NCBI GenBank assembly: GCA_003695705.1
Contig: RFHU01000364.1
Location: 1-33,273, forward strand
Direction: 5' to 3'
Length of the DNA stretch: 33,273 bases
DNA from: Planctomycetota bacterium
GTDB lineage: Bacteria; Planctomycetota; J058
This document shows positions 13,419 to 26,396 of this stretch, one piece after another. A program made the translations under genes and the position numbers. Each line of letters opens with the position of its first letter. The first letter of the stretch is position 1. The notes under the pieces were generated by a model that did no database searches, was not told the origin of the DNA, and worked only from the letters and a program-made list of their open reading frames with translations.

Positions 13419-13497
13419 GTGAACGACGCGAGCCCGAGCGAGGCCGTGGACCCCGAGCCCGGACGCGGCGCACCCCGAGGAGACCTCCCGGGCGGAC

Positions 13498-13506
13498 TGC
13501 TAAGAT
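13498..13506 (+). promoter_or_regulatory. Extended -10 box TGCTAAGAT for the plus-strand kinase
   Basis: TGC followed by TAAGAT gives an extended -10 element. Transcription would begin near 13513, leaving a leader of about 47 bases that carries the purine-rich ribosome-binding site AGGGAGAGGGG (13541-13551) before GTG 13560. No -35 is evident. Confidence 0.45.
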
Positions 13507-13559
13507 GGACTTCCCTCGCGGGATCGAAGACGCTGCCCGCAGGGAGAGGGGCTCGCGGG

Positions 13560-15101
13560 GTGGACCAACGCGATCGACTGGTTGCCGACCTCGCCGTGCG
13601 GCTGGGCCTGATCGAGCCCGCGGCCCTCCGGCGACTCCCGCCGCTGCGCGCGCAGTTCCCTACGCGGCCCCTCGAGCGCCTCCTCCTCGACGTCGGCCTC
13701 CTCGACACCGCAGGCCACCAGCGCCTCGTCGCCGGCCTGCGCGCCGCCTCCTCGGCGCCCCCGAGCGAAGCGCGCAGCGCTGCGCTCCGGCGCCGTGGGC
13801 TCTCCGACTCGGACGTCCTGCCCCTTCCGCCGAGCGACGAGGAGGAACTCGAGGTTCCCGACGACGTCTTCGACGAACCAACCCTCGTCCTCGGCGACGA
13901 AGGGACTGCCGAACCCGCCGTCTTCGACCAGAAAACCGTCGTCCTCCCCGACGACGAACCCGCCGTCTTCGACCAGAAAACCGTCGTCCTCCCCGACGAC
14001 GAACCCGCCCTCGAACTCCTCCCCGGCGGCGACTCGGACCGCCTCGAACTCGCTCTGCCCCCCGAAGAGGACCCGCGCCTCGCAGAGGGCGCCCCGACCC
14101 CGCCGCCGTCCCCCGGCGCGCGCCAGGACAAGGTGCTCACCGGATCCGAGTTCCAGCGCCGCCTCGAGAAGCGCCAGGGCTTCGAGGGGTTTCGGCTGGG
14201 GGACTACCGCATTCTGGGCGAGATCTCACGAGGCGCCTTCGGCGTGGTGCTCGACGCCGAACCGGGCGGAGTGACCAAGAGCATTGGCCTCGACCGCGGC
14301 TACGAAGGAAACGTCGCCCTCAAGGTCTCGCTGGAAAACCGCAGCGACCCGCGCGCAACCGAACGCTTCCTCGAAGAAACGCGCGTCCAGATCGGCTTCG
14401 ACCACCCGCACATCGTGCGGATCTTCGACTGTGGGGTGGAGGCCGGCCTCACCTACTACTCCATGGAGCGGATCGAAGGGCTCGAGGCGCGCCGCCACGT
14501 CCTCGACAACGGCCCCATGCCGCCCCTCCTTGCCGTGCGCATCGTCAAGGAGATCGCTGCGGCCCTCGCCTACGTGCACCAGCGCCGGATCTACCACCGC
14601 GACCTCAAACCGCACAACATCCTCCTCGACCAACGTACGCGGCCCTGGCGAGCGGTCCTGATCGACTTCGGGCTCGTGACCGAACACCTCGCGGGCGACA
14701 AGGACAAGGGGCTGATCCTGGGCACGCCCTCCTACATGCCTCCCGAGCAAGCGCAGCCGCGGGGTGGCCACGGCCCCATCAACGCCACGAGCGACATCTA
14801 CGCCCTCGGCGCGACCCTCTACTTCTTCCTCACCGGCCGCGCCCCCTTCACCGACCGCGACCCGCGCAAGATCATCCGCAAGGTGGTCAACCAAGCCCCC
14901 GTCGACCCCGCCGAGCTCAACCCCGCCGTCCCGCGCCGCATCGCCGACCTGTGCCTCAAGTGCCTGGCCAAGAAGCAGCGCGACCGCTACCACTCCGCGC
15001 GACAGCTCGAAGCCGAGCTCGAACGCGAGCTCCGGAGCGGGCAGCGAAAACTCAAGGCCAAGTCCTTTCTCGGGCGCTTCCTCGGCAAGAAGAAGCCCTG
15101 A
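13560..15101 (+). CDS. Ser/Thr protein kinase with long acidic N-terminal region carrying a tandem repeat
   Basis: A 513-residue cytoplasmic kinase. The first 60 residues are helical. Residues 75-190 are acidic and probably disordered, and contain a 15-residue unit PAVFDQKTVVLPDDE in two tandem copies after a related EPTLVLGDE. The kinase domain (about 215-490) has a looser glycine loop GEISRGAFGVV, lysine K255 (VALKVS), catalytic HRDLKPHN (346-353), DFG (369-371), GTPSYMPPEQ and SDIYALG, so it should be active. The C-terminus is Lys-rich (RKLKAKSFLGRFLGKKKP). The start at GTG 13560 is chosen because a strong ribosome-binding site lies eight bases upstream; the frame is open further up. It is divergent from the zinc-ribbon kinase. 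The repeated T-V-V-L motifs look like possible phospho-threonine sites for FHA domains, which is inference. Confidence 0.9.
   Translation: MDQRDRLVADLAVRLGLIEPAALRRLPPLRAQFPTRPLERLLLDVGLLDTAGHQRLVAGLRAASSAPPSEARSAALRRRGLSDSDVLPLPPSDEEELEVPDDVFDEPTLVLGDEGTAEPAVFDQKTVVLPDDEPAVFDQKTVVLPDDEPALELLPGGDSDRLELALPPEEDPRLAEGAPTPPPSPGARQDKVLTGSEFQRRLEKRQGFEGFRLGDYRILGEISRGAFGVVLDAEPGGVTKSIGLDRGYEGNVALKVSLENRSDPRATERFLEETRVQIGFDHPHIVRIFDCGVEAGLTYYSMERIEGLEARRHVLDNGPMPPLLAVRIVKEIAAALAYVHQRRIYHRDLKPHNILLDQRTRPWRAVLIDFGLVTEHLAGDKDKGLILGTPSYMPPEQAQPRGGHGPINATSDIYALGATLYFFLTGRAPFTDRDPRKIIRKVVNQAPVDPAELNPAVPRRIADLCLKCLAKKQRDRYHSARQLEAELERELRSGQRKLKAKSFLGRFLGKKKP
13911..14009 (+). repeat. 45 bp in-frame tandem repeat, 2.2 copies
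   Basis: Units 13911-13955 and 13956-14000 are identical, followed by nine bases of a third. The unit encodes EPAVFDQKTVVLPDD, so copy number could change without shifting frame. Confidence 0.9.
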
Positions 15102-15255: not shown

Positions 15256-15284
15256 TTGACATTGAACTAGTCCGCTAGTTCAAT
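15256..15284 (+). promoter_or_regulatory. Sigma70-type promoter of the GntR-ABC operon
   Basis: A perfect -35 TTGACA (15256-15261), a 17-base spacer and TTCAAT (15279-15284) as -10. GTG 15294 follows nine bases later, so the mRNA would have almost no leader. An inverted repeat covers the spacer and most of the -10. Confidence 0.75.
15262..15283. promoter_or_regulatory. Operator palindrome inside the promoter
   Basis: A perfect inverted repeat TTGAACTAG-N4-CTAGTTCAA fills the space between the -35 and -10 boxes and overlaps five bases of the -10. A bound dimer would block RNA polymerase. The adjacent GntR-type gene is the obvious candidate for the binding protein, which implies autoregulation. 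The site is seen directly; the binding partner is inferred. Confidence 0.75.
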
Positions 15285-15293
15285 GGTCACCCA

Positions 15294-15977
15294 GTGAACC
15301 ACCTCCGCGACGGCACGCTGCGGCTGCGCCGCACGGAAGGGGCCCGCCCCCGCTGCCCCTTCTGTCGGGGCGCCTTCCTCCCCGGCGAACGGGTTCGGCG
15401 CTGCGCGACCTGCGGGGAAGCCCACCACTGGGAGTGCCTGGCCCTTCACGGCGGCTGCGCGGTCTACGGCTGCGAGGTCGCCCCCCCCAGAGAGGACGCA
15501 ATGGACGAGTGGAGCATCGACCCCGACGACCCCGTGCCCATCAGCGAGCAGATCACCTACCGGGTGCTCTTCGCCATCGCCAAGGGCGTCTACCGGCCCG
15601 GGGACCGCCTTCCGACCGTGCGCGAAGTGGCCGCGCGCCTCAAGGTCAACCCGAACACCGTCTCCAAGGCCTACCGCGACCTCGACCGCGACGGGGTCCT
15701 GATCAGCCGCCGCGGAGCCGGCGTCTTCGTTCATCCCGACGCGCCGCAGGTGGCCACCGAGCGGCGCCAAGCCCTGGTGCTCGCCCGCTGCGAGCGGGCC
15801 CTGGGCGAGGCCCTCGACGCCGGCCTCACCCCCGAGGAGATCCAAGAGGTCATCGTCAACGCCCTGCGGCGCGCCGCCCGCGCCCGCGGCCTCCCCCTCT
15901 CCGAAAACACCAGCACGCCGCGGTGGGCCGAGCGGGTCCTGGCGCGCCCCCGAAAGGACAGCAAGCATGAAGGTTGA
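15294..15977 (+). CDS. RING-like zinc finger fused to a YtrA-type GntR regulator
   Basis: A 227-residue protein. Residues 21-60 carry a cross-brace zinc-binding pattern: C21-x2-C24, C37-x2-C40, H45-x2-C48, C55 and C60, like the prokaryotic RING finger family. From about residue 78 comes a classic GntR winged helix (ISEQITYRVLF, RLPTVREVAARLKVNPNTVSKAYRDLDRDGVL), then a short helical C-terminus as in YtrA-type repressors. Family members repress adjacent ABC transporter operons, and here the ATPase gene overlaps by 11 bases. GTG 15294 is preferred over the internal ATG 15501 because the promoter ends nine bases before it and the cysteine pattern is intact. Starting at 15501 would give an ordinary YtrA-sized protein. 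Zinc binding is expected but unproven; what the RING-like part contacts is unknown. Confidence 0.88.
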   Translation: MNHLRDGTLRLRRTEGARPRCPFCRGAFLPGERVRRCATCGEAHHWECLALHGGCAVYGCEVAPPREDAMDEWSIDPDDPVPISEQITYRVLFAIAKGVYRPGDRLPTVREVAARLKVNPNTVSKAYRDLDRDGVLISRRGAGVFVHPDAPQVATERRQALVLARCERALGEALDAGLTPEEIQEVIVNALRRAARARGLPLSENTSTPRWAERVLARPRKDSKHEG

Positions 15978-16965
15978 CGTGAGCCGCAAGCGACCCGACC
16001 CCTCGCCCGCCTCGCAAACCGAATCCGTCCCGGGGCCGACCGCACAAGGCGCCGCCCCCCCACCCCTCGAAGCCCGGAATCTGGGCCGCCGTTTCGGGCG
16101 CCGCTGGGTGGTCCGCGACCTCAGCTTCCAAGTCCCCCGCGGCTCGGTCACCGCCCTGCTCGGACGCAACGGAGTCGGCAAGTCGACGACCATCCAGCTC
16201 CTCTTGGGCCTCCTGGACCCCAGCGAAGGCGAAGCGCGCGCCTTCGGCGCAGACCCCCGCCGCCTCCGCGCGGACCTCTTTCGGCGCACGGGCTACGTCT
16301 CCGAGCGGCGCGAACTCCTCGAGGACCAAAGCGTCGAGGGGTTGGCGCGGATCGTCGCCGAGCTCCACGGCCCGCGCTTCGACCGCGAGCGCTTCGAAGA
16401 CCTGCGGCGCCGCTACGAGCTCGATCCGCAGGCTCGCTGCAAGACCCTCTCCAAGGGTCAGCGCGCCCGGCTCCTCCTCGCCCTGGCCCTCGCCCCGAGC
16501 CCCGAGCTCCTCGTCCTCGACGAGCCCACCTCGGGCCTCGACGTGCTCGTGCGCGACGACTTCCTTGCGGGCATCGCCGAGGCCGCCGCCGAGGAGGACC
16601 GCGCGGTCCTCCTCTCCTCGCACTTGATCGACGACGTGGCCAGGATCTGCGACCGCGCGGTGATCCTCCGCGAAGGCCGTCCGCCCCTCTGCGGCGACCT
16701 CGAAGCGTTGCGCGCGAGCTGCTCGCGCTACCTGGTGCGTCTGAAGGGCGTCCTCCCCGCGAGCGCCTCCCTGCCCCTGCCGGCCGACGCGGTGCTCCTC
16801 GAGCGAGATCCCCGCGCGCTGACCCTGGTCGCCCAGGGAGCGTGCGAGCACCTCGAGGCCGAGCTCGACGCCTGCCTTCCGGTGGCCGAGCTCGAGCGGC
16901 GCCCCGCAACCCTCAAAGAAGCCTTCGCCTGCCTCTCGGCCCCCGCGCAAGGAGGGGCGTCGTGA
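15967..16965 (+). CDS. ABC transporter ATPase
   Basis: A 332-residue ATP-binding subunit. After a Pro-rich 30-residue lead the ABC domain shows Walker A GRNGVGKST (66-74), a slightly altered signature LSKGQR (161-166, for LSGGQ), Walker B LLVLDEP (181-187) with TSGLD as D-loop, and the switch His H219 (SSHL). A C-terminal extension of about 100 residues follows, as in the YtrB/CcmA-like exporter ATPases. It would power the two downstream permeases from the cytoplasmic face. AAAGGA lies eight bases before ATG 15967, inside the end of the regulator gene, and its own stop overlaps the next start by four bases (GTGA), indicating translational coupling. All catalytic motifs are present. Confidence 0.93.
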   Translation: MKVDVSRKRPDPSPASQTESVPGPTAQGAAPPPLEARNLGRRFGRRWVVRDLSFQVPRGSVTALLGRNGVGKSTTIQLLLGLLDPSEGEARAFGADPRRLRADLFRRTGYVSERRELLEDQSVEGLARIVAELHGPRFDRERFEDLRRRYELDPQARCKTLSKGQRARLLLALALAPSPELLVLDEPTSGLDVLVRDDFLAGIAEAAAEEDRAVLLSSHLIDDVARICDRAVILREGRPPLCGDLEALRASCSRYLVRLKGVLPASASLPLPADAVLLERDPRALTLVAQGACEHLEAELDACLPVAELERRPATLKEAFACLSAPAQGGAS

Positions 16966-18821
16966 GCCGCACCCTGTGGATGCGGGAAGTTCGCCGCCTC
17001 GCCCCCTTCGGCACCGGCAGCCTGCTCTGGGTCTACGGAAGCCGACTCGCCTACCAGCCCCCTCCTCAGGGGCTCCCCGAGGACGTCTTCCTCGTCCCCG
17101 GGGCTTGCCTCTTGGCCCCTCTCCTCCTCGGCGCAATCTCCGTTGCACCCGAAGCGAGGACGGGCGCCCTGGCCTTCTTGCGCCGGCAGCCCCTCTCGCT
17201 CTCCCGGCAGTACCTCGTCCGGGTCACCGCCGCCCTCGCGTGGCTCCTGCCGAGTTGGCTGCTCCTCTGCGCGGACTCGCTCTTCGCCGTTCAGGCTCCT
17301 CCCCCGGTGACCAACGGCGGACCGGGCGTCTGGGCTAGCCTTTGGGCCCTGGCGTTCGGCGCCGGCCTGTTGGCCTCCACGATTGCGTTCGAGGCTCTCT
17401 CGGCGCTCTTCCTTGCCCTGGCCTTCGGACTCGTGGGGAGCGGCCTCTTGCTCGCCGCCGACGTCCTCGTCTTGGGCATGGCGCCCTTGACTCCACAGGC
17501 GGTGGCCCTCGCGGCCTTCGTGTTCGCCGGCTCGGCCCTCGCCAGCAGCTACGTCGCCTTCGTTCGCGGCGAGCTCCAGCACCGCTCCGTCCGCCCACTC
17601 ATGCTCGGGACCACCTGCCTGGCGGGAGCACTCGGCCTGGGCCTCCTGGGAACCGCGGCGGCGCAGGCCTACACCGTACGCGCCGTAGTAGCGCAGCTCC
17701 CCCTCGGCGGCGACCGCTCCCGTGCGGGGGGACGCCTCGCCGTCAGCCTGCAGGGCGCAACGTGGGCGGGCGACGAAGACCGAGTCGCCGTCTTCGCGCG
17801 CGGCGGCGACGCCCCCCGGGTGCTCGACGTCCGTGGCGTACGCCGCCCCGTCTTCTCCCCCGACGGGGGACGGCTCCTCCTCTTCGATCGCCAGCGGCGC
17901 GCTCGCTGGCTCTACGACCTCGACCGAGGCGCTCGCGCCGAGTTGGTTGCCCGCCCAGGGACCTCCTTCGACGGCGGCGAGGTCCTCTGGACCGACGCAG
18001 GGCCCCTGCTTCTCGCCGCCGGCAGCGGGTCGCTCGCCGCCTTCGACCCCCGCACCGGCGAAAGCAACCTCGCCTCCCTCCCCAAGGGCATGCGCCTCGC
18101 GGGCGTCCGGCCGGGCGCGCACCCCCTGGTCCTTCACGACGCGCAGCGCCTCTACGCCGCCGACTGCCCTAGAGTACCCGCGCGCAGCGAGGCGGACCTC
18201 GCAATCGAACCCGCGGCTCGGCTCGGCGACGGATCGCGATCCGGGGCGCTCTCCCACTGGGCGGAGGTCGTCCTCTCCCCGAACGGACGCTACGCCCTCT
18301 GCCGCGACCGAGACGCGGCCCGCCCCCTGGTTCTCTTCGACCTCGTGACCCCCGAGGCGCCGCCGCGCCGCCTCCCGCTCGCGGCACCGTCCGCCGCAGC
18401 GCCGCGAGCCGCGCCGGCTCCCCGGGAGGCCGTGCTCTCGATCATCGAAGACGGGCGCACCGTGTCCCGCTCGGTGGAACGGCTGCGCCTCTTGGGAACC
18501 TACTCCTACGGCTGGGACCCGAGCGAGCGCCGCCTCGCCCTCGAGAGCCCCGGAGGAACGGTCTTCCTCTTCGACCTCGAGAGCGGACGCCGAGCCGTTC
18601 TCCAGAGCGGGCGCCGGAGCTTCCCGGGACGGGCCTTGGCCTGGTCCCCCAGCGGTCGGATCCTCGCCCTCCCCTCGGGGGCGGTGGTCGACGTCGACTC
18701 CGCCAGGCTCCTCGGCCACGCGCCGGTCTACGCCTTCCTCGACGAAGAGCGCGTGCTCCTGCGCGGCCACCGGGCCGCCCCGCTCTCCCTCGCGTCCGCC
18801 CTCGCCGGAGGTGCCCCGTGA
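16962..18821 (+). CDS. ABC permease fused to a C-terminal beta-propeller-like domain (first copy)
   Basis: A 619-residue protein. Residues 1-245 are the permease: about seven hydrophobic segments (near 16-32, 43-62, 88-108, 123-143, 148-170, 179-200 and 212-235), with a typical ABC-2 style cytoplasmic loop EARTGALAFLRRQPLSLSRQ. Basic residues lie in the loops expected inside (RRQ, RGELQHR), so the remaining 370 residues should lie outside. That part shows blade-like motifs of WD40/TolB propellers: RRPVFSPDGGRLLLFD, VVLSPNGRYAL, WDPSERRLALE with VFLFDLESG, and LAWSPSGRILAL. The first hydrophobic segment is marginal; if it does not cross, the propeller would face the cytoplasm. The start is GTG 16962, overlapping the ATPase stop by four bases. 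The substrate is unknown. It resembles the next gene in architecture. Confidence 0.85.
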   Translation: MSRTLWMREVRRLAPFGTGSLLWVYGSRLAYQPPPQGLPEDVFLVPGACLLAPLLLGAISVAPEARTGALAFLRRQPLSLSRQYLVRVTAALAWLLPSWLLLCADSLFAVQAPPPVTNGGPGVWASLWALAFGAGLLASTIAFEALSALFLALAFGLVGSGLLLAADVLVLGMAPLTPQAVALAAFVFAGSALASSYVAFVRGELQHRSVRPLMLGTTCLAGALGLGLLGTAAAQAYTVRAVVAQLPLGGDRSRAGGRLAVSLQGATWAGDEDRVAVFARGGDAPRVLDVRGVRRPVFSPDGGRLLLFDRQRRARWLYDLDRGARAELVARPGTSFDGGEVLWTDAGPLLLAAGSGSLAAFDPRTGESNLASLPKGMRLAGVRPGAHPLVLHDAQRLYAADCPRVPARSEADLAIEPAARLGDGSRSGALSHWAEVVLSPNGRYALCRDRDAARPLVLFDLVTPEAPPRRLPLAAPSAAAPRAAPAPREAVLSIIEDGRTVSRSVERLRLLGTYSYGWDPSERRLALESPGGTVFLFDLESGRRAVLQSGRRSFPGRALAWSPSGRILALPSGAVVDVDSARLLGHAPVYAFLDEERVLLRGHRAAPLSLASALAGGAP

Positions 18822-20782
18822 AGCTCCTCTTCGCCCGCGCCCTGCGCGGCCTCCTCCCCGTCGCCTTGGGCCTGGCGGGGGTCCACGCCTTGCTCCTCGC
18901 TGCCTTGGCCCTGGGGCCCGTCCTCTTCGACTCGCCCGCACTCCATGCCGCCGACCTCGCCTTCGGTCTCGCGGTCATGGCCTGCCCCTTCGTTCTGGCG
19001 GCGGCGGCCTTCGCACGCGACTACGAAACGGGCGGCGAGGCCTTCCTCGCCACCTTGCCGGCGCGGCGCCTGCCCCTCCTCGCCGCCCGCCTCGCGGCCG
19101 CCGCCCTGGCCTCCGGCCTCACGGTGCTCGTCGTCTGGGCCCTCTGCCGGCTCGGGGAGAGCGTGTTCCTCGGCCCCGCCCCGCGCCTCCTGAGCGAGCG
19201 AGGCGAGGTCCTCGTGGGCCTCGCCTCCCTGGGCGGCTTCGCCGCCGGGGTCGCGGGAGGTGTCCTCGCGCGGAGGACCGTCGCGGGGCTCCTCGTTGGC
19301 CCAGCCCTCGTGGGCGGCGTCGCCTGGCTCCTCCTCGCCCTGACGGACTTCCTCGGCGCCCCGGAGCCCTGGCCCGAAGGGCTGTCCTTGGCGGGCGGCG
19401 CCCTCGTCTTCCTGGGGGCCGCAGCGGCCTACGTGCGCCGCGGCGCCTGGCCAGCGCCGACCCCCGCCCGGGCCCTGGGCGCGGGGGCCACGGCCCTTGC
19501 CCTGCTGCTCCCCGCCGCGGGGGCAGGGCTCGCCTTCGCCGCGGACCACACCGTCTTCGCCGAGCGGGAGGTCCTGGCCGTGAGTTCGAGCACCACGGCA
19601 CGAACGGCCCTCCTGGCGTCCTTCCCCCACAACCGCTGGCGGGGCCCCGGCGGCGAACTCCCGCGTCACGAGTTGTGGGTCTTCACCGCCGACGCCCCGG
19701 ACACGCCCTGGTCGCTCCCTGCGTCGGCGTCTTGCTTCAACATCTCGCCCGACGGGCGCCACGTGCTCCTCGGAGTCCCCGTAGGAGCGGGCACCCGCTT
19801 CGCCCTCGCCGACGTGGGGGAGCGGCGCCTCGCCTGGGGGCCCGCCGGGGCGTTCTCCGAGCAACTCTCCACGGCGAGGGCGGAGAGGCAAGTGGATCTC
19901 CTCTTCGAGTCCGTCCCCTTCTGGCGCTGCTTCCCGTCTTCCCCGCAGGTATGGGCCCAAACCCCAGGGCGCGGCTCCATGAGCTATCCCGTCGTCTGGG
20001 CCGAGCGGAATGCCTTCTTGGTGGACCCCCGGACCGGGCGCCTCGTGCGCTGGGACGGGGCCCCGGGACCCCGCCTCCCTACGGACACGGCCCTCGAAGA
20101 CTACCAGGCAGGCGCCCTGCTCCTGCGCGACCCGGCAGGTCAACGCTACCGTTTCGAAGTCCGCTCCGGCAGGACGACCCCGCTCCCGATCCCCGTGCGT
20201 GCGCTGGCCGCGCGCCTGGGGCCGGCAGGACGCCGGGTCCTTTGGCTGGAGCCCACCAACGAGGGAGGGCTCGCTCTTTGGTGCCAAGACGACCCCGGCC
20301 AGCCACCGCGCCCCCTTGGCCCCGAACTCCCGACGACCGGCCCCCGGACCGCACCGGCGGTCGCCCTCGAAGAAAGCTGGCTGGGGCTCGCCTTCGCGGC
20401 CGGGAGCGACGAGGCCCTTCTCGTCTACCTGCGCCCGGAGGACGCCGGCGTCCGGAACGCCCTCGTCTGGTGGATCGACTTCCGAGGCACCTGCCGCAGC
20501 GTGGACTGGGAGCCCTGGGTGACCGACTACGCGCCCAGGGTCCTCGATTGGCTCCTCCCCGGCGAAGGCGGGGAGCTGTGGACCCCCCTCGGCCGAATCC
20601 GCCCGACCTCGAAGGGGAACCGGCGCGCCCGACTCGCAATCTGGAAGAACGAAAGGCCACAGGAGCGGCAGTACTACCACCTAGGGGATCTGCTCCTGCG
20701 CCTGCCCGACGCTCGCCTTTTGACGACCGCCGGCTACTTCGACCCCCGAAGCAACCGAGTCGTCGCGCCCCCGCCCTTCTGA
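18818..20782 (+). CDS. ABC permease fused to a C-terminal beta-propeller-like domain (second copy)
   Basis: A 654-residue protein built like its upstream neighbour. Seven transmembrane segments (near 11-37, 46-66, 92-109, 131-151, 157-179, 188-206 and 219-242) have Arg-rich loops after the second, fourth and sixth, which puts the N-terminus inside and the C-terminal 410 residues outside. The cytoplasmic loop RDYETGGEAFLATLPARR is typical of ABC-2 permeases. The soluble part is beta-rich with propeller-like features such as CFNISPDGRHVLLGV and LVDPRTGRLVRWDG, although its blades are less regular. It probably pairs with the upstream permease to form a heterodimeric transporter with the ATPase. 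The start is GTG 18818, with a four-base GTGA overlap. It is the last gene of the operon and ends 120 bases before a convergent gene. Confidence 0.85.
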   Translation: MKLLFARALRGLLPVALGLAGVHALLLAALALGPVLFDSPALHAADLAFGLAVMACPFVLAAAAFARDYETGGEAFLATLPARRLPLLAARLAAAALASGLTVLVVWALCRLGESVFLGPAPRLLSERGEVLVGLASLGGFAAGVAGGVLARRTVAGLLVGPALVGGVAWLLLALTDFLGAPEPWPEGLSLAGGALVFLGAAAAYVRRGAWPAPTPARALGAGATALALLLPAAGAGLAFAADHTVFAEREVLAVSSSTTARTALLASFPHNRWRGPGGELPRHELWVFTADAPDTPWSLPASASCFNISPDGRHVLLGVPVGAGTRFALADVGERRLAWGPAGAFSEQLSTARAERQVDLLFESVPFWRCFPSSPQVWAQTPGRGSMSYPVVWAERNAFLVDPRTGRLVRWDGAPGPRLPTDTALEDYQAGALLLRDPAGQRYRFEVRSGRTTPLPIPVRALAARLGPAGRRVLWLEPTNEGGLALWCQDDPGQPPRPLGPELPTTGPRTAPAVALEESWLGLAFAAGSDEALLVYLRPEDAGVRNALVWWIDFRGTCRSVDWEPWVTDYAPRVLDWLLPGEGGELWTPLGRIRPTSKGNRRARLAIWKNERPQERQYYHLGDLLLRLPDARLLTTAGYFDPRSNRVVAPPPF

Positions 20783-20902: not shown

Positions 20903-22309
20903 CTAGGTGGCGAGCAAGAGCGCGGCGCGGTCCACGCCGGCGGGGGGACGTTCGAGCACCTCGACGACCTCGCCGGCGACGCCCGCCGTGCCGTCGAGGG
21001 GGAGGCGCCCGCCGCCCGCCGGGCTCCCGTCGGGGCCGAGCGCCACCGCAACGACGGGGCGCAGGGGGGCCGCGCGGTTGGGCTCCACCACCACACCGAC
21101 CTCGCCCCCGCGCAAGCGCACCACCGTGCCCGGCGGGTAGGGGCCGAGCAGCCACGCGAACACCGAGAGCAGCGCCGGGTCGTGGACTCCTTCGCTGCGG
21201 AGGAGTTCCTCGAGGGCCTGCGGGGGCGTCCGGGCCGGGGCGCCCTGGCGGTCGCTGGTCAGCGCGTCGTACTCCTCGCACAGGCGTACGATCATGGCGA
21301 AGGGGTGCCGGGGAGGACGGTGGCGCGCCGGCGTCGGGATCCGGTGGCGCGCAAACTGAAAGGCCACGGTCACCGCGAGCAAACTGCGCGTGTTGCTCCG
21401 CCGGGTGCCGAGGAGCGATCCCAGCGCCCGGTAGGGGTGGAGCCCCAGCGCCTCGGCGTCCTCGGGCGAGGGAAGGGCGCTGCCGAGCAGGTGCGCGGGC
21501 AGATCGACCATGCCCAAGGCGTGCAGCAGGGCCGAGGAGGCCAACTCGGCGAGGCGAACTCGGGTCACGCCCAGGGCGTAGCCGAGCGCGAAGGCGAGGA
21601 AGCCCGTGTTCGCCATGTGCTGAAAGACGTAGGCGTCGGCCCCCTTGACGGACCCCAGCGCCAGGAACCGCTCGGGAAAGCGCGGCACGAGCCCGGTCAG
21701 GTCGCGCACCGCGCGCCCGAGCTTGAGTTCGAGGTCGCGGCGCACCGCCTCGTCGTCGTGTCGGCGAACGAACTCGCGCACCAGCACGAGGGTGCGTGCG
21801 TAGGCCTGGGGGAAGAAGGCCGCGGGGTCGATCTCGGTCTGCTCCGCCCGAACGGCCCCGTCTTCGTCGAGCCCGAAGACCTGCGCGCGCCCCCCCAGCT
21901 CCGCCTCTTCGAGGGCAGCCTTCAACTCGGCGAAGGGCCGCTTCCCCACGGCGGGCGGTTTGAGGCAACCGAAGAAGGCCCGCAGCGCGTCGAGGGTGAG
22001 TCCCTCCCCAAAGGAAAGCCCTCCTACCTCCTGCGCGAGGAGGGCGTCGTGGAGCTCCTTGAGGGTGGCGTAGGCCTGCCGCCCCCCGCGAACCGGGTCT
22101 CGGTTGAGGAACAAGGTCCCCTGGTCCACGTCGAGGCGTACGCTCCCTGCCTGCGCGAGGATCTGCTCGATCAGCGACAGCAACCCCCGCAAGGGCTCGT
22201 CGAGGTTGACGTTGTCCACCGCGTAGAGGCGCACGATCCGCAGCGCTTGCAAGAAGCGCGTGCAGAACTCGACCCCGAGATCCTTGTCGAATTCGAGCTC
22301 GTTGCTCAC
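20903..22309 (-). CDS. Degenerate HD-GYP-like protein
   Basis: A 468-residue cytoplasmic protein. Residues 1-110 form an N-terminal domain also found in the upstream gene (LRIVRLYAVDN, LFLNRDPV). The middle (about 240-380) aligns by eye with HD-GYP phosphodiesterases: QHMANTGFLAFALG, LLHALGMVDLP for LLHDIGKIGIP, LHPYRALGSLL, and CEEYDALTSDR. The Asp of the HD pair is Ala, the following Lys is Met, and the HHE..DGSGYP segment is absent, so cyclic-di-GMP hydrolysis is unlikely. The C-terminal beta segment (PPGTVVRLRGGEVGVVVEPN) is often seen after HD-GYP domains. It starts at GTG 22309, overlapping the upstream stop by four bases, so it is translationally coupled to the helical-repeat protein and may be a non-catalytic sensor or partner. 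Confidence 0.8.
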   Translation of the reverse strand: MSNELEFDKDLGVEFCTRFLQALRIVRLYAVDNVNLDEPLRGLLSLIEQILAQAGSVRLDVDQGTLFLNRDPVRGGRQAYATLKELHDALLAQEVGGLSFGEGLTLDALRAFFGCLKPPAVGKRPFAELKAALEEAELGGRAQVFGLDEDGAVRAEQTEIDPAAFFPQAYARTLVLVREFVRRHDDEAVRRDLELKLGRAVRDLTGLVPRFPERFLALGSVKGADAYVFQHMANTGFLAFALGYALGVTRVRLAELASSALLHALGMVDLPAHLLGSALPSPEDAEALGLHPYRALGSLLGTRRSNTRSLLAVTVAFQFARHRIPTPARHRPPRHPFAMIVRLCEEYDALTSDRQGAPARTPPQALEELLRSEGVHDPALLSVFAWLLGPYPPGTVVRLRGGEVGVVVEPNRAAPLRPVVAVALGPDGSPAGGGRLPLDGTAGVAGEVVEVLERPPAGVDRAALLLAT

Positions 22310-24080: not shown

Positions 24081-26396
24081 GTGAGCAGCGCCAACTACGA
24101 ACACCTCGTCGGACTGCGCCTCTCCTCCTCCCTCGTTACGACCGGACTCCTCGGCGCCGGGGCCATGGGCGTGGTGCTCCGGGCCCGCCACGACGGCCTG
24201 CGGCGGGACGTCGCCGTCAAGTTCCTCAACCCGGGCCTTGTGTCCGACGACCCCGAGGCCCTCGAGCGCTTCCTCCAAGAGGCGCGGGTCATTGCCCGCC
24301 TCCGCCACCCAGGGCTGGTCTCCCTGCTCGACGCAGGGCGCTTCGGGCCCAACGCCTGGTTCAGCATGGAGTTGATCGAGGGCCGCTCCCTCGCGGAAGC
24401 GCTCGAGGAACTCGCCCCGCCGGCCGCCCTCTCCGCCCTCGCCGACGTCGCCGACGCCCTCGCCTACGTACACCGCGAAGGCTTCGTGCACCGCGACCTC
24501 AAACCGCAGAACGTCATGCTCCGCTCCGACGGTCGGGCCGTCCTGATGGACTTCGGCCTGGTGAAGGACCTCGAAGCCGCGGGACTGACGGCGGCAGGCG
24601 CCCTCCTGGGCACCCCCGCCTACATGCCCCCCGAGCAGGCCTCGGGCGAAGAGGAAGTGGGCCCGGCCGCAGACATTTACGCGCTGGGGGCAATCCTCTA
24701 CACCTGGCTCGCCGGGCGTCCGCCCTACCGAGCCCCCAACGCCCTCAACGTGCTCTTCCAGGTACTCAAGGGGCCGCCGCCGGCGCCCTCCGAGATCCGC
24801 GACGGGGTGCCCCCCGAACTCGAGGCCCTCTGCCTCAAGGCCATGGCGCGCGATCCCCGCGCACGCTTCGCCGACGCCCACGAACTGGCGCAGGCCTTGC
24901 GCGCCGCGGCGGGCCCCGCCCCACGGACCGGGCCGGGGCGCTGCGTTCTCCGCCACCCCGAACTGGGCGACTTCGTCCTCCGCCCCGGCGGCGAACTCAC
25001 CGTCGGCCGAGAGGCCGGGCGGGACGTGCGGATCCCCTCGGGAAGCGTCTCTCGCCTGCACGCGCGGCTCGTGTGGGGAGCGGAGCCCGGCGCCCGCCCC
25101 GCGGTGGTCGACGAGGGGAGCGCCAACGGAACGACCGTCGACGGCGAGCTCGTCTCCGGCCGGGCCCTCCTGCCGGTCTCCGGCCGCGTATCCTTCGCCG
25201 GACACGAGTTCTCGGTGTTGCTCGAGGAAGGAGAGGGGCGCGCGCTCCTCGACGAAGAGACCTCGCGGGACGTGGTCGTGGGGGCCTTCAGCCTCGGTCA
25301 GCGGCTCAGCGGGCGCCTCGTGGACGCCTTTTCGATCCACGAGGTCCTGCGCAAGGCGGAGGACGCCCAACTCACCGGCACGCTCGACCTGACCACGCCG
25401 CGCGGGGAGGCTGCGGTCACCCTGGGCATGGGGCGGATCATGGCCGTACGCGCGCCGGCGCTCGAGGGCCTGGAGGCTCTGGACTGGGTGCTCTCCGCCC
25501 AGAGCGGGCGCTACCGCTTCCGCCCCGAACTCGAACCCTGCGAGAGCACCCTCGACCTCTCCTTCGCCCGCTACGCGCGAGGACAGGCCGCCGCCCGCCG
25601 CAAGGCCGCCGCGCGGCGGCGCGAGGAAGAGCGCCGGGCAGCGGCGCCTCCCCGGCCGATCGATCCCCTCGCGGTCCCGCCGCGCGCACCGACGGGCGCC
25701 CCCCCCGCGGAGCCGGCGCACGCCCCCGCCGGCGCTACCGCCAGCGCAACGGCGAGACCGGCCAGCGTCCGGCCCACGGGAGAGCCCGCCGCCTGGCTCG
25801 ACTGCCCGCCCTTCGATCCGGTCCCAGTCCGCGGGGAATTGCGCGTGGGGCGGGACCCCGACTGCGCCCTCGTCCTCCCCCACGTGGCCGTCTCCTTCCT
25901 GCATGCCTTGGTCCGCGACGGACCGGAGGGCCTCGAAGTGGAGGACCGCTCGCTGGGCGGCACCTACCTCAACGGCGAGCGCGTCCTCCTCTCGGCACTG
26001 CGCCCGGGCGACACCCTCACCGTCGGCCCCTACGCCGTTCGCGTCGAGGCGCGCCGCCCTCGCACGCGCACGCGCCCTCCCGTCCAACCCCTCGAACTGC
26101 CTGCGCAGAGCGCCACGCCGGGGGGCCGACTGGCCCGCGTCCCCCTCCCCCGGCTCCTCCGGCTCCTCGCCGGGCGCAGCGCGACGGGGTTGCTCGAGTT
26201 CACCACCCCCGCCGCCGCGGGCGAGTTGGCCTTGCTCCGCGGTCGCGTCGTCCACGCCCGCAAGGGCGATCTCCGGGGGGAGGAGGCCGCCCGCGCCCTC
26301 CTCTCGGCAGACAAGGGGCGCTTTCTCTACCACGCCAAGCGGCGCCCGCCGGAACAGAGCCTGGACCTTGCCGTAGAAGCCCTCCTCGACGGCTGA
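24081..26396 (+). CDS. Ser/Thr protein kinase with two FHA and two DUF4388-like domains
   Basis: A 771-residue cytoplasmic protein. The kinase domain (about 15-270) is intact: GAGAMGVV loop, K47 (VAVKF), HRDLKPQN (137-144), DFG (157-159), GTPAYMPPEQ and ADIYALG. An FHA domain follows (about 288-380, VGREAGRD, SVSRLHARL, GSANGTTVDG), then a DUF4388-type domain (about 405-500, LSGRLVDAFSIHEVLRKAEDAQLTGTLDL, GRIMAVRAP). After an Ala/Pro/Arg linker come a second FHA domain (about 585-655, VGRDPDCALVLP, SFLHALV, GGTYLNG) and a second, more divergent DUF4388 copy (about 685-765, LPRLLRLLAGRSATGLLEF, GRVVHARKGD). FHA domains bind phospho-threonine, so the protein may read its own or its neighbours' phosphorylation. 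The start was placed at GTG 24081 because the -10 box covers the upstream ATG 24066. It is divergent from the helical-repeat gene. Confidence 0.92.
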   Translation: MSSANYEHLVGLRLSSSLVTTGLLGAGAMGVVLRARHDGLRRDVAVKFLNPGLVSDDPEALERFLQEARVIARLRHPGLVSLLDAGRFGPNAWFSMELIEGRSLAEALEELAPPAALSALADVADALAYVHREGFVHRDLKPQNVMLRSDGRAVLMDFGLVKDLEAAGLTAAGALLGTPAYMPPEQASGEEEVGPAADIYALGAILYTWLAGRPPYRAPNALNVLFQVLKGPPPAPSEIRDGVPPELEALCLKAMARDPRARFADAHELAQALRAAAGPAPRTGPGRCVLRHPELGDFVLRPGGELTVGREAGRDVRIPSGSVSRLHARLVWGAEPGARPAVVDEGSANGTTVDGELVSGRALLPVSGRVSFAGHEFSVLLEEGEGRALLDEETSRDVVVGAFSLGQRLSGRLVDAFSIHEVLRKAEDAQLTGTLDLTTPRGEAAVTLGMGRIMAVRAPALEGLEALDWVLSAQSGRYRFRPELEPCESTLDLSFARYARGQAAARRKAAARRREEERRAAAPPRPIDPLAVPPRAPTGAPPAEPAHAPAGATASATARPASVRPTGEPAAWLDCPPFDPVPVRGELRVGRDPDCALVLPHVAVSFLHALVRDGPEGLEVEDRSLGGTYLNGERVLLSALRPGDTLTVGPYAVRVEARRPRTRTRPPVQPLELPAQSATPGGRLARVPLPRLLRLLAGRSATGLLEFTTPAAAGELALLRGRVVHARKGDLRGEEAARALLSADKGRFLYHAKRRPPEQSLDLAVEALLDG

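Follow-up and report, generated by a model that had tools for sequence, protein, structure and literature searches.

A RING-fused YtrA-type repressor in an ABC-2-type transporter operon of Planctomycetota with predicted periplasmic propellers

YtrA-type regulators belong to the GntR family and are well known beside genes for ABC exporters, often with a link to cell-envelope stress. In Bacillus subtilis, YtrA recognises the site AGTGTA-13bp-TACACT (PMC8060467), and the YtrA motif typically has a length of 24 bp (PMC6746942). Deletion mutants of the B. subtilis Ytr system show no consistent antibiotic phenotype and the authors of that work doubt a transport function (PMC12772383), and export as a function of YtrA-type systems is therefore uncertain. 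A second example is PmtR, for which the peptides that are exported act as the releasing signal (PMC5080381). RING fingers are known from other bacterial settings. Prokaryotic RINGs follow a C4HC3 order with a long last loop (PMC11354881), operons of the E1/E2/Ubl/JAB type are known from Planctomycetes (PMC4197634), and prokaryotic RING fingers have been linked to such operons (Burroughs et al. 2011, as relayed in PMC4197634).

Here, a window of 33,273 nucleotides from a Planctomycetota bacterium was analysed, in which an operon of a YtrA-type regulator, an ABC ATPase and two permeases combines both themes. The most unusual part of this operon is the fusion of a RING domain to the repressor, not the fusion of propellers to the permeases. 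Fusion to a RING was found only in a single small lineage, while the exporter architecture is common to several bacterial phyla.

Operon structure and conservation

The operon consists of four genes on the same strand, with overlaps of 11, 4 and 4 nt between successive genes (15294-20782). The host genome has 6.6 Mb and is 88% complete. The main features are:

15256-15261, plus strand: -35 hexamer TTGACA (direct sequence reading)
15294-15977, plus strand: RING-YtrA repressor of the GntR family, 227 aa, GTG start (Pfam, NCBIfam, 8-genome alignment)
15967-16965, plus strand: ABC ATPase, 332 aa (PF00005, 88.4 bits)
16962-18821, plus strand: permease 1, 619 aa (AF2, Foldseek, positive-inside rule)
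18818-20782, plus strand: permease 2, 654 aa (AF2, hhalign to permease 1)

A preliminary description of this DNA had taken the four overlapping genes as one unit, with a YtrA-type regulator beside an ABC-2-type transporter. Both points are borne out by a single upstream promoter, a conserved gene order, and matches of the regulator to PF00392 (60.3 bits) and of the ATPase to PF00005. The ATPase carries a Walker A motif (GRNGVGKST), a signature motif (LSKGQ), a Walker B motif (LLVLDEPT) and an H-loop (SSH).

The same description had proposed a search for this gene order in other genomes, and the order was recovered in eight. Regulator, ATPase and two permeases follow one another identically in 8/8 Planctomycetota genomes, with two copies of permease 2 running into contig ends. 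Seven of the genomes that carry the RING-YtrA regulator belong to one family and the eighth to a different family within the order. The regulator scores 363-396 bits in the eight and is 60-65% identical along its full length; the next protein in a 392-genome sample of the phylum scores 129 bits and has no RING. Full-length permease 1 was seen only in the eight RING-YtrA genomes. When permease 1 was used alone as a query, a contig scan gave no matches, because these permeases evolve fast and are hence poor baits, whereas the regulator alignment did retrieve relatives. Among the eight genomes, mean pairwise identity is about 36% in the membrane part and 27% in the C-terminal part of permease 1, and about 31% and 26% in the respective parts of permease 2.

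The operon is flanked directly upstream by a Ser/Thr protein kinase gene on the same strand (13419-15101; PF00069, 128.9 bits). Downstream, a converging minus-strand gene (20906-22306) encodes at least 467 aa with HD-domain-like stretches recognised by eye and no Pfam match at E 0.001.

Permease topology and spread of the architecture

Neither permease in the window had a significant Pfam or NCBIfam match, therefore the domain reading could be tested solely through structural models and relatives. ABC2_membrane_5 reached an E value of 0.12 for permease 2 and permease 1 had no ABC-2 match, so that both fall short of the curated Pfam definition of ABC-2 permeases. Permease 1 does have a helical core with a coupling helix and profile homology to accepted members. 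Its AF2 model, based on an 8-sequence alignment, has a mean pLDDT of 71, with values of mostly about 75-90 across the beta domain; it places seven membrane helices in residues 1-241, with a short helix (69-75) after helix 2, where the ABC-2 coupling helix is expected. The model of permease 2 is poor (mean pLDDT 50), with seven helices in residues 1-253 and a beta-rich remainder.

To the C-terminal side of the helices, the following domains are predicted:

17700-18761, plus strand: C-terminal propeller of permease 1, residues 247-600, about 30 strands, likely seven blades (AF2, Foldseek)
19577-20779, plus strand: C-terminal domain of permease 2, a probable propeller (profile homology to permease 1)

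Under a seven-helix model with helix limits taken from the AF2 models, the density of K+R across the eight sequences is 0.22 on the inner versus 0.075 on the outer side for permease 1, and 0.20 versus 0.068 for permease 2. This asymmetry points to C-terminal domains outside, and both are most likely periplasmic. A cytoplasmic location, for instance through a helix 1 or 7 that does not span the membrane, would fit the six helices usual for ABC-2 permeases and the weak hydrophobicity of helix 1 in permease 1, which a hydropathy scan missed in several sequences. However, positive charges lie on the side expected from the seven-helix model across the family, and relatives from other phyla likewise scan as about seven segments, leaving this alternative very improbable. 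The seven membrane segments per permease and the outward-facing domains that had been predicted from loop charges are thus upheld, the former by agreement of AF2 models, hydrophobicity and the positive-inside rule, and the earlier domain sizes of about 370 and 410 residues are about right.

The claim that both domains are WD40/TolB-like propellers stands on different ground for each permease. For permease 1, a beta propeller is well supported by modelling: the top of the Foldseek list against the PDB consists entirely of propellers (WD40 proteins, NirF, AztD; E about 1e-8 to 1e-6), with target-normalised TM scores of about 0.4-0.56 for single-propeller chains, and a profile comparison also matches the domain, weakly, to PDB chains of the WD40 type. 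Pfam gave only sub-threshold PD40/PQQ matches for the C-terminal domains of this family. For permease 2, Foldseek returned TolB and S9 peptidase matches at a TM score of about 0.1, which is too low to count. Since its own AF2 model is poor, the case for a propeller comes from profile homology: hhalign of permease 1 against permease 2 gave 99.6% for the membrane parts and 96.7% (E 4e-10) for the C-terminal parts, and reversed and column-shuffled null profiles all gave less than 1%. A propeller is therefore probable in permease 2.

The preliminary description had treated the propeller fusion as the distinguishing feature of the operon, a view that does not survive comparison with other genomes. 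The idea that the fusion is unique to this operon was rejected, as YtrA-linked permeases with a large C-terminal domain are common in Planctomycetota and are also present in three other phyla. Elsewhere in the phylum, the permeases of most plain YtrA loci continue past their membrane helices into such a domain, and one group from four of these loci (L110, L111, L112, L119) aligns with permease 1 at 98.4% over 323 columns (hhalign). YtrA-ATPase-permease operons of Armatimonadota, Wallbacteria and Elusimicrobia encode about seven segments followed by a long C-terminal domain. For example, an Armatimonadota permease (L055a of locus L055) passes the cut-offs of both ABC2_membrane_2 (35.2 vs 27.2 bits) and PD40 (30.9 vs 20.9 bits). 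The group to which it belongs reaches 96% against permease 1, where reversed and column-shuffled profiles stay below 1%. No published description of this YtrA-linked permease-propeller architecture was found in a literature search, which does not prove its absence.

Large C-terminal domains also occur in other forms. Several RING-YtrA genomes and G007 have a second, plain YtrA operon (L106-L109, L047) with a different permease family, whose large C-terminal domain is partly propeller-like. In four further loci (L117, L120, L121, L122), YtrA-linked permeases have about ten membrane segments and a large C-terminal domain that appears helical by eye; there, a large C-terminal domain does not equal a propeller.

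The repressor, its putative operator and its RING domain

The regulator gene and its promoter contain the following elements:

15260-15285, no strand: putative operator, perfect inverted repeat CATTGAACTAG-tccg-CTAGTTCAATG with 11-bp arms and a 4-nt spacer, overlapping the promoter
15351-15464, plus strand: RING domain, Prok-RING_1 like, ligands C21 C24 C37 C40 H45 C48 C55 C60 (alignment)
15501-15503, plus strand: possible internal ATG start for a YtrA protein lacking the RING, with AGAGAGG upstream at 15489-15495
15543-15731, plus strand: GntR winged-helix DNA-binding domain (the PF00392 match, residues 84-146), followed by a short YtrA-like part

As in YtrA proteins, the winged helix is followed by a C-terminal part of about 50 residues, and the conserved region stops near residue 200. 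The best NCBIfam matches of the regulator include the PmtR and Rv1152 models, those of the ATPase include PmtA, and the PmtR and PmtA scores are far below their cut-offs. Its PDB matches are small GntR proteins.

The -35 hexamer is spaced 17 nt from a -10-like TTCAAT (15279-15284). Four relatives (G002, G005, G006, G009) have TTGACA plus a downstream TACACT or TACACC, and the remaining relatives have other TTGNNN forms; a generic sigma-70 scan did not list the promoter at 15256. In 5/7 relatives, as in the window, the distance from the -10 hexamer to the start codon is exactly 9 nt, which suggests that the transcript is probably leaderless. The core of the putative operator, a 24-bp ATTGAA-N12-TTCAAT, has the same register as AGTGTA-N12-TACACY in the relatives (8 genomes compared). 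The relatives' half-sites occupy the equivalent promoter position and, for example as AGTGTA-N12-TACACC, nearly match the B. subtilis YtrA site. As is typical of YtrA, this is a long site (about 24 bp) at the promoter of the regulator's own ABC operon. It occurs once in the 6.6-Mb genome with up to 3 mismatches allowed, and was never found in shuffled window sequence. A putative operator that overlaps the promoter and has no second copy genome-wide makes autorepression by RING-YtrA the natural inference. A regulon beyond this operon was considered and rejected, as a second operator within 3 mismatches is absent genome-wide.

The repressor may also exist in two forms. At the junction between RING and YtrA parts, 3-4 residues ahead of a conserved W, all eight genomes have an in-frame ATG (three) or GTG (five) preceded by a purine-rich, SD-like sequence (window, L038-L044). 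ATG and GTG make up 3.6% of codons in RING-YtrA genes, and many plain YtrA genes begin near the equivalent position. Together, these observations suggest that an internal start yields a RING-less repressor, which would serve as a built-in control for RING-dependent regulation.

What the RING itself might do can be judged from its conservation and genomic context. It is possible, though doubtful, that a bacterial Ubl pathway acts on RING-YtrA as a target or works with it as an E3-type partner, and that the exporter is the output of a Ubl-controlled switch. The RING would then be the docking site of E2-Ubl, and repression would end once the repressor or a neighbour is modified, an effect to which the RING-less isoform would be immune; this too is put forward tentatively. 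In favour, the eight zinc ligands are invariant and in cross-brace order in 8/8 genomes, and their pattern agrees with the C4HC3 order and long last loop of prokaryotic RINGs. Against it, the window's RING stays under the PF14446 cut-off of 29.1 bits (23.6 bits; 26.6 in the genome scan), while the orthologue in G001 exceeds it at 31.8 bits.

The components of such a pathway are encoded in most of the same genomes. An E1(ThiF)-Ubl(YukD-like)-E2 operon is present in 7/8 RING-YtrA genomes (L127-L133; in the window's genome on contig G000:C236 near 24387-25105), with E1 and Ubl confirmed by BLAST in six genomes and, in the window's genome, Ubl only. In five genomes the operon is followed by a JAB gene; the contig ends there in G009, and in G001 the next frame is outside the compared stretch. 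HPN and the catalytic cysteine are both retained in the E2. Ubl sequences from different genera share 88-96% identity and have an invariant end, LLLTSTFVAG. These findings are consistent with Ubl control, as are homologous RINGs encoded inside E2 loci in other families of Planctomycetota. Across 392 genomes, RING is present in 30/34 genomes with E2 versus 33/358 without, and at family level in 16/19 versus 13/80. Both counts are uncorrected for relatedness and thus ignore shared ancestry, which weakens them as support. A further point against is G003, where E2 and Ubl were searched for and not found in an assembly, 89% complete, that encodes at least 16 RINGs as well as the RING-YtrA operon.

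RING genes are also unusually numerous in these genomes. The window's genome (G000) has 24 Prok-RING_1 matches and one E2-like gene, all eight RING-YtrA genomes have at least 15 RING genes each, and the nine genomes with at least 15 matches are these eight plus G008, which again agrees with Ubl control. However, the RINGs of G000 belong to proteins of many different layouts, several of which have membrane segments, and this makes a general role in binding proteins equally possible. In G000, the parts fused to RINGs (L142-L161) include membrane segments, PDZ-like stretches and low-complexity tails. Within the 392-genome sample, expansion to at least 15 RINGs is seen only in families f1, f3 and f4 of the host order.

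Because the support is genome co-occurrence and G003 yielded neither E2 nor Ubl, the tie between this RING and a ubiquitin-like pathway is a contextual one. The proposal that the native Ubl pathway controls the repressor by way of the repressor's RING, that an isoform made from an internal start is blind to this pathway, and that the twin-propeller exporter is the only detected target is accordingly speculative and rather unlikely. The defined partners (E1, Ubl, E2, JAB), the unique putative operator and the predicted RING-less isoform make it directly testable. If the RING is functional, this locus would offer a specific case in which a bacterial ubiquitin-like pathway may control transcription.

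Proposed mechanism and comparison with known systems

Taken as a whole, the operon probably encodes an autorepressed, envelope-associated ABC-2-type exporter with paired periplasmic propellers. Two copies of the ATPase would power a heterodimer of permease 1 and permease 2. Each permease would contribute a six-helix ABC-2 core, with the seventh helix carrying the propeller into the periplasm, so that the two propellers would flank the translocation exit. There, they would most likely bind or pass on a ligand with activity on the envelope, either a peptide or a lipid-linked molecule, which the complex exports or extracts; external propellers on permeases would offer a ready docking platform. 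RING-YtrA would sit on the palindrome over its own -35/-10 region until it is released by the build-up of a signal in the cytoplasm, which, by analogy with PmtR, is probably the substrate. The RING may add a second input through protein contacts, and the internal start could give a repressor without it. This exporter reading is preferred because the gene order is kept in eight genomes despite permeases that are about 25-36% identical, and because PmtR, among the regulator's best NCBIfam matches, is displaced by exported peptides. The operon holds no substrate gene, which counts against it.

Sensor or mechanical action without substrate movement has been proposed for NosDFY or MacB-like systems. 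If the complex here were mainly such a device, its propellers would bind an envelope component and ATP hydrolysis would signal to, or exert force on, a periplasmic partner. The retention of paired external domains in 8/8 genomes, the doubts over transport by Ytr and the presence of NosF among the closest solved ATPases are all compatible with this. However, NosF is one of several PDB relatives (ABCA3, ABCA7, Rv1218c, NosF) and ranks behind the ABCA lipid transporters and the Rv1218c efflux pump, and the operon has no gene for a periplasmic partner, so this alternative appears considerably less probable. Likewise, the earlier suggestion that the propellers sense a ligand and signal to the ATPase finds little encouragement in the nearest characterised YtrA-type systems, which are controlled from the cytoplasm, PmtR being an example.

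Among known systems, B. subtilis ytrGABCDEF resembles the operon in having a YtrA-type repressor early in an ABC operon, a presumed envelope link, and self-operators with AGTGTA/TACACT-type half-sites about 12-13 bp apart, which in the window are predicted. Ytr differs in having two ATPases and a separate MacB-like YtrF, whereas the operon described here encodes a single ATPase, its two permeases each have a predicted propeller fused to them, and its repressor carries a RING (8 genomes). PmtR-PmtABCD of Staphylococcus aureus, a phenol-soluble modulin exporter, likewise pairs a YtrA-type GntR repressor with its own ABC exporter; we know of no propeller domains on Pmt permeases and no RING on PmtR.

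The closest relatives in architecture are the YtrA operons of Planctomycetota (L047, L107, L108, L110-L112, L115, L119), Armatimonadota (L055), Wallbacteria (L056, L057) and Elusimicrobia (L058, L060). They share YtrA, an ATPase and permeases of about seven helices, with C-terminal domains of about 300-400 aa, several of which have propeller signatures. Unlike the window's operon, their regulators have no RING, their permease sequences are very distant, and some of the operons encode a single permease or permeases whose C-terminal domain is helical. Most knowledge of YtrA-type ABC systems comes from envelope stress in Gram-positive bacteria, and the operons compared here show that there is a cross-phylum form with predicted external propellers. 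The RING itself shares its C4HC3 order, long last loop and phylum with the prokaryotic RINGs of E1/E2/Ubl/JAB operons. Unlike the RINGs of conjugation operons, it lies outside such an operon and is fused to a DNA-binding repressor.
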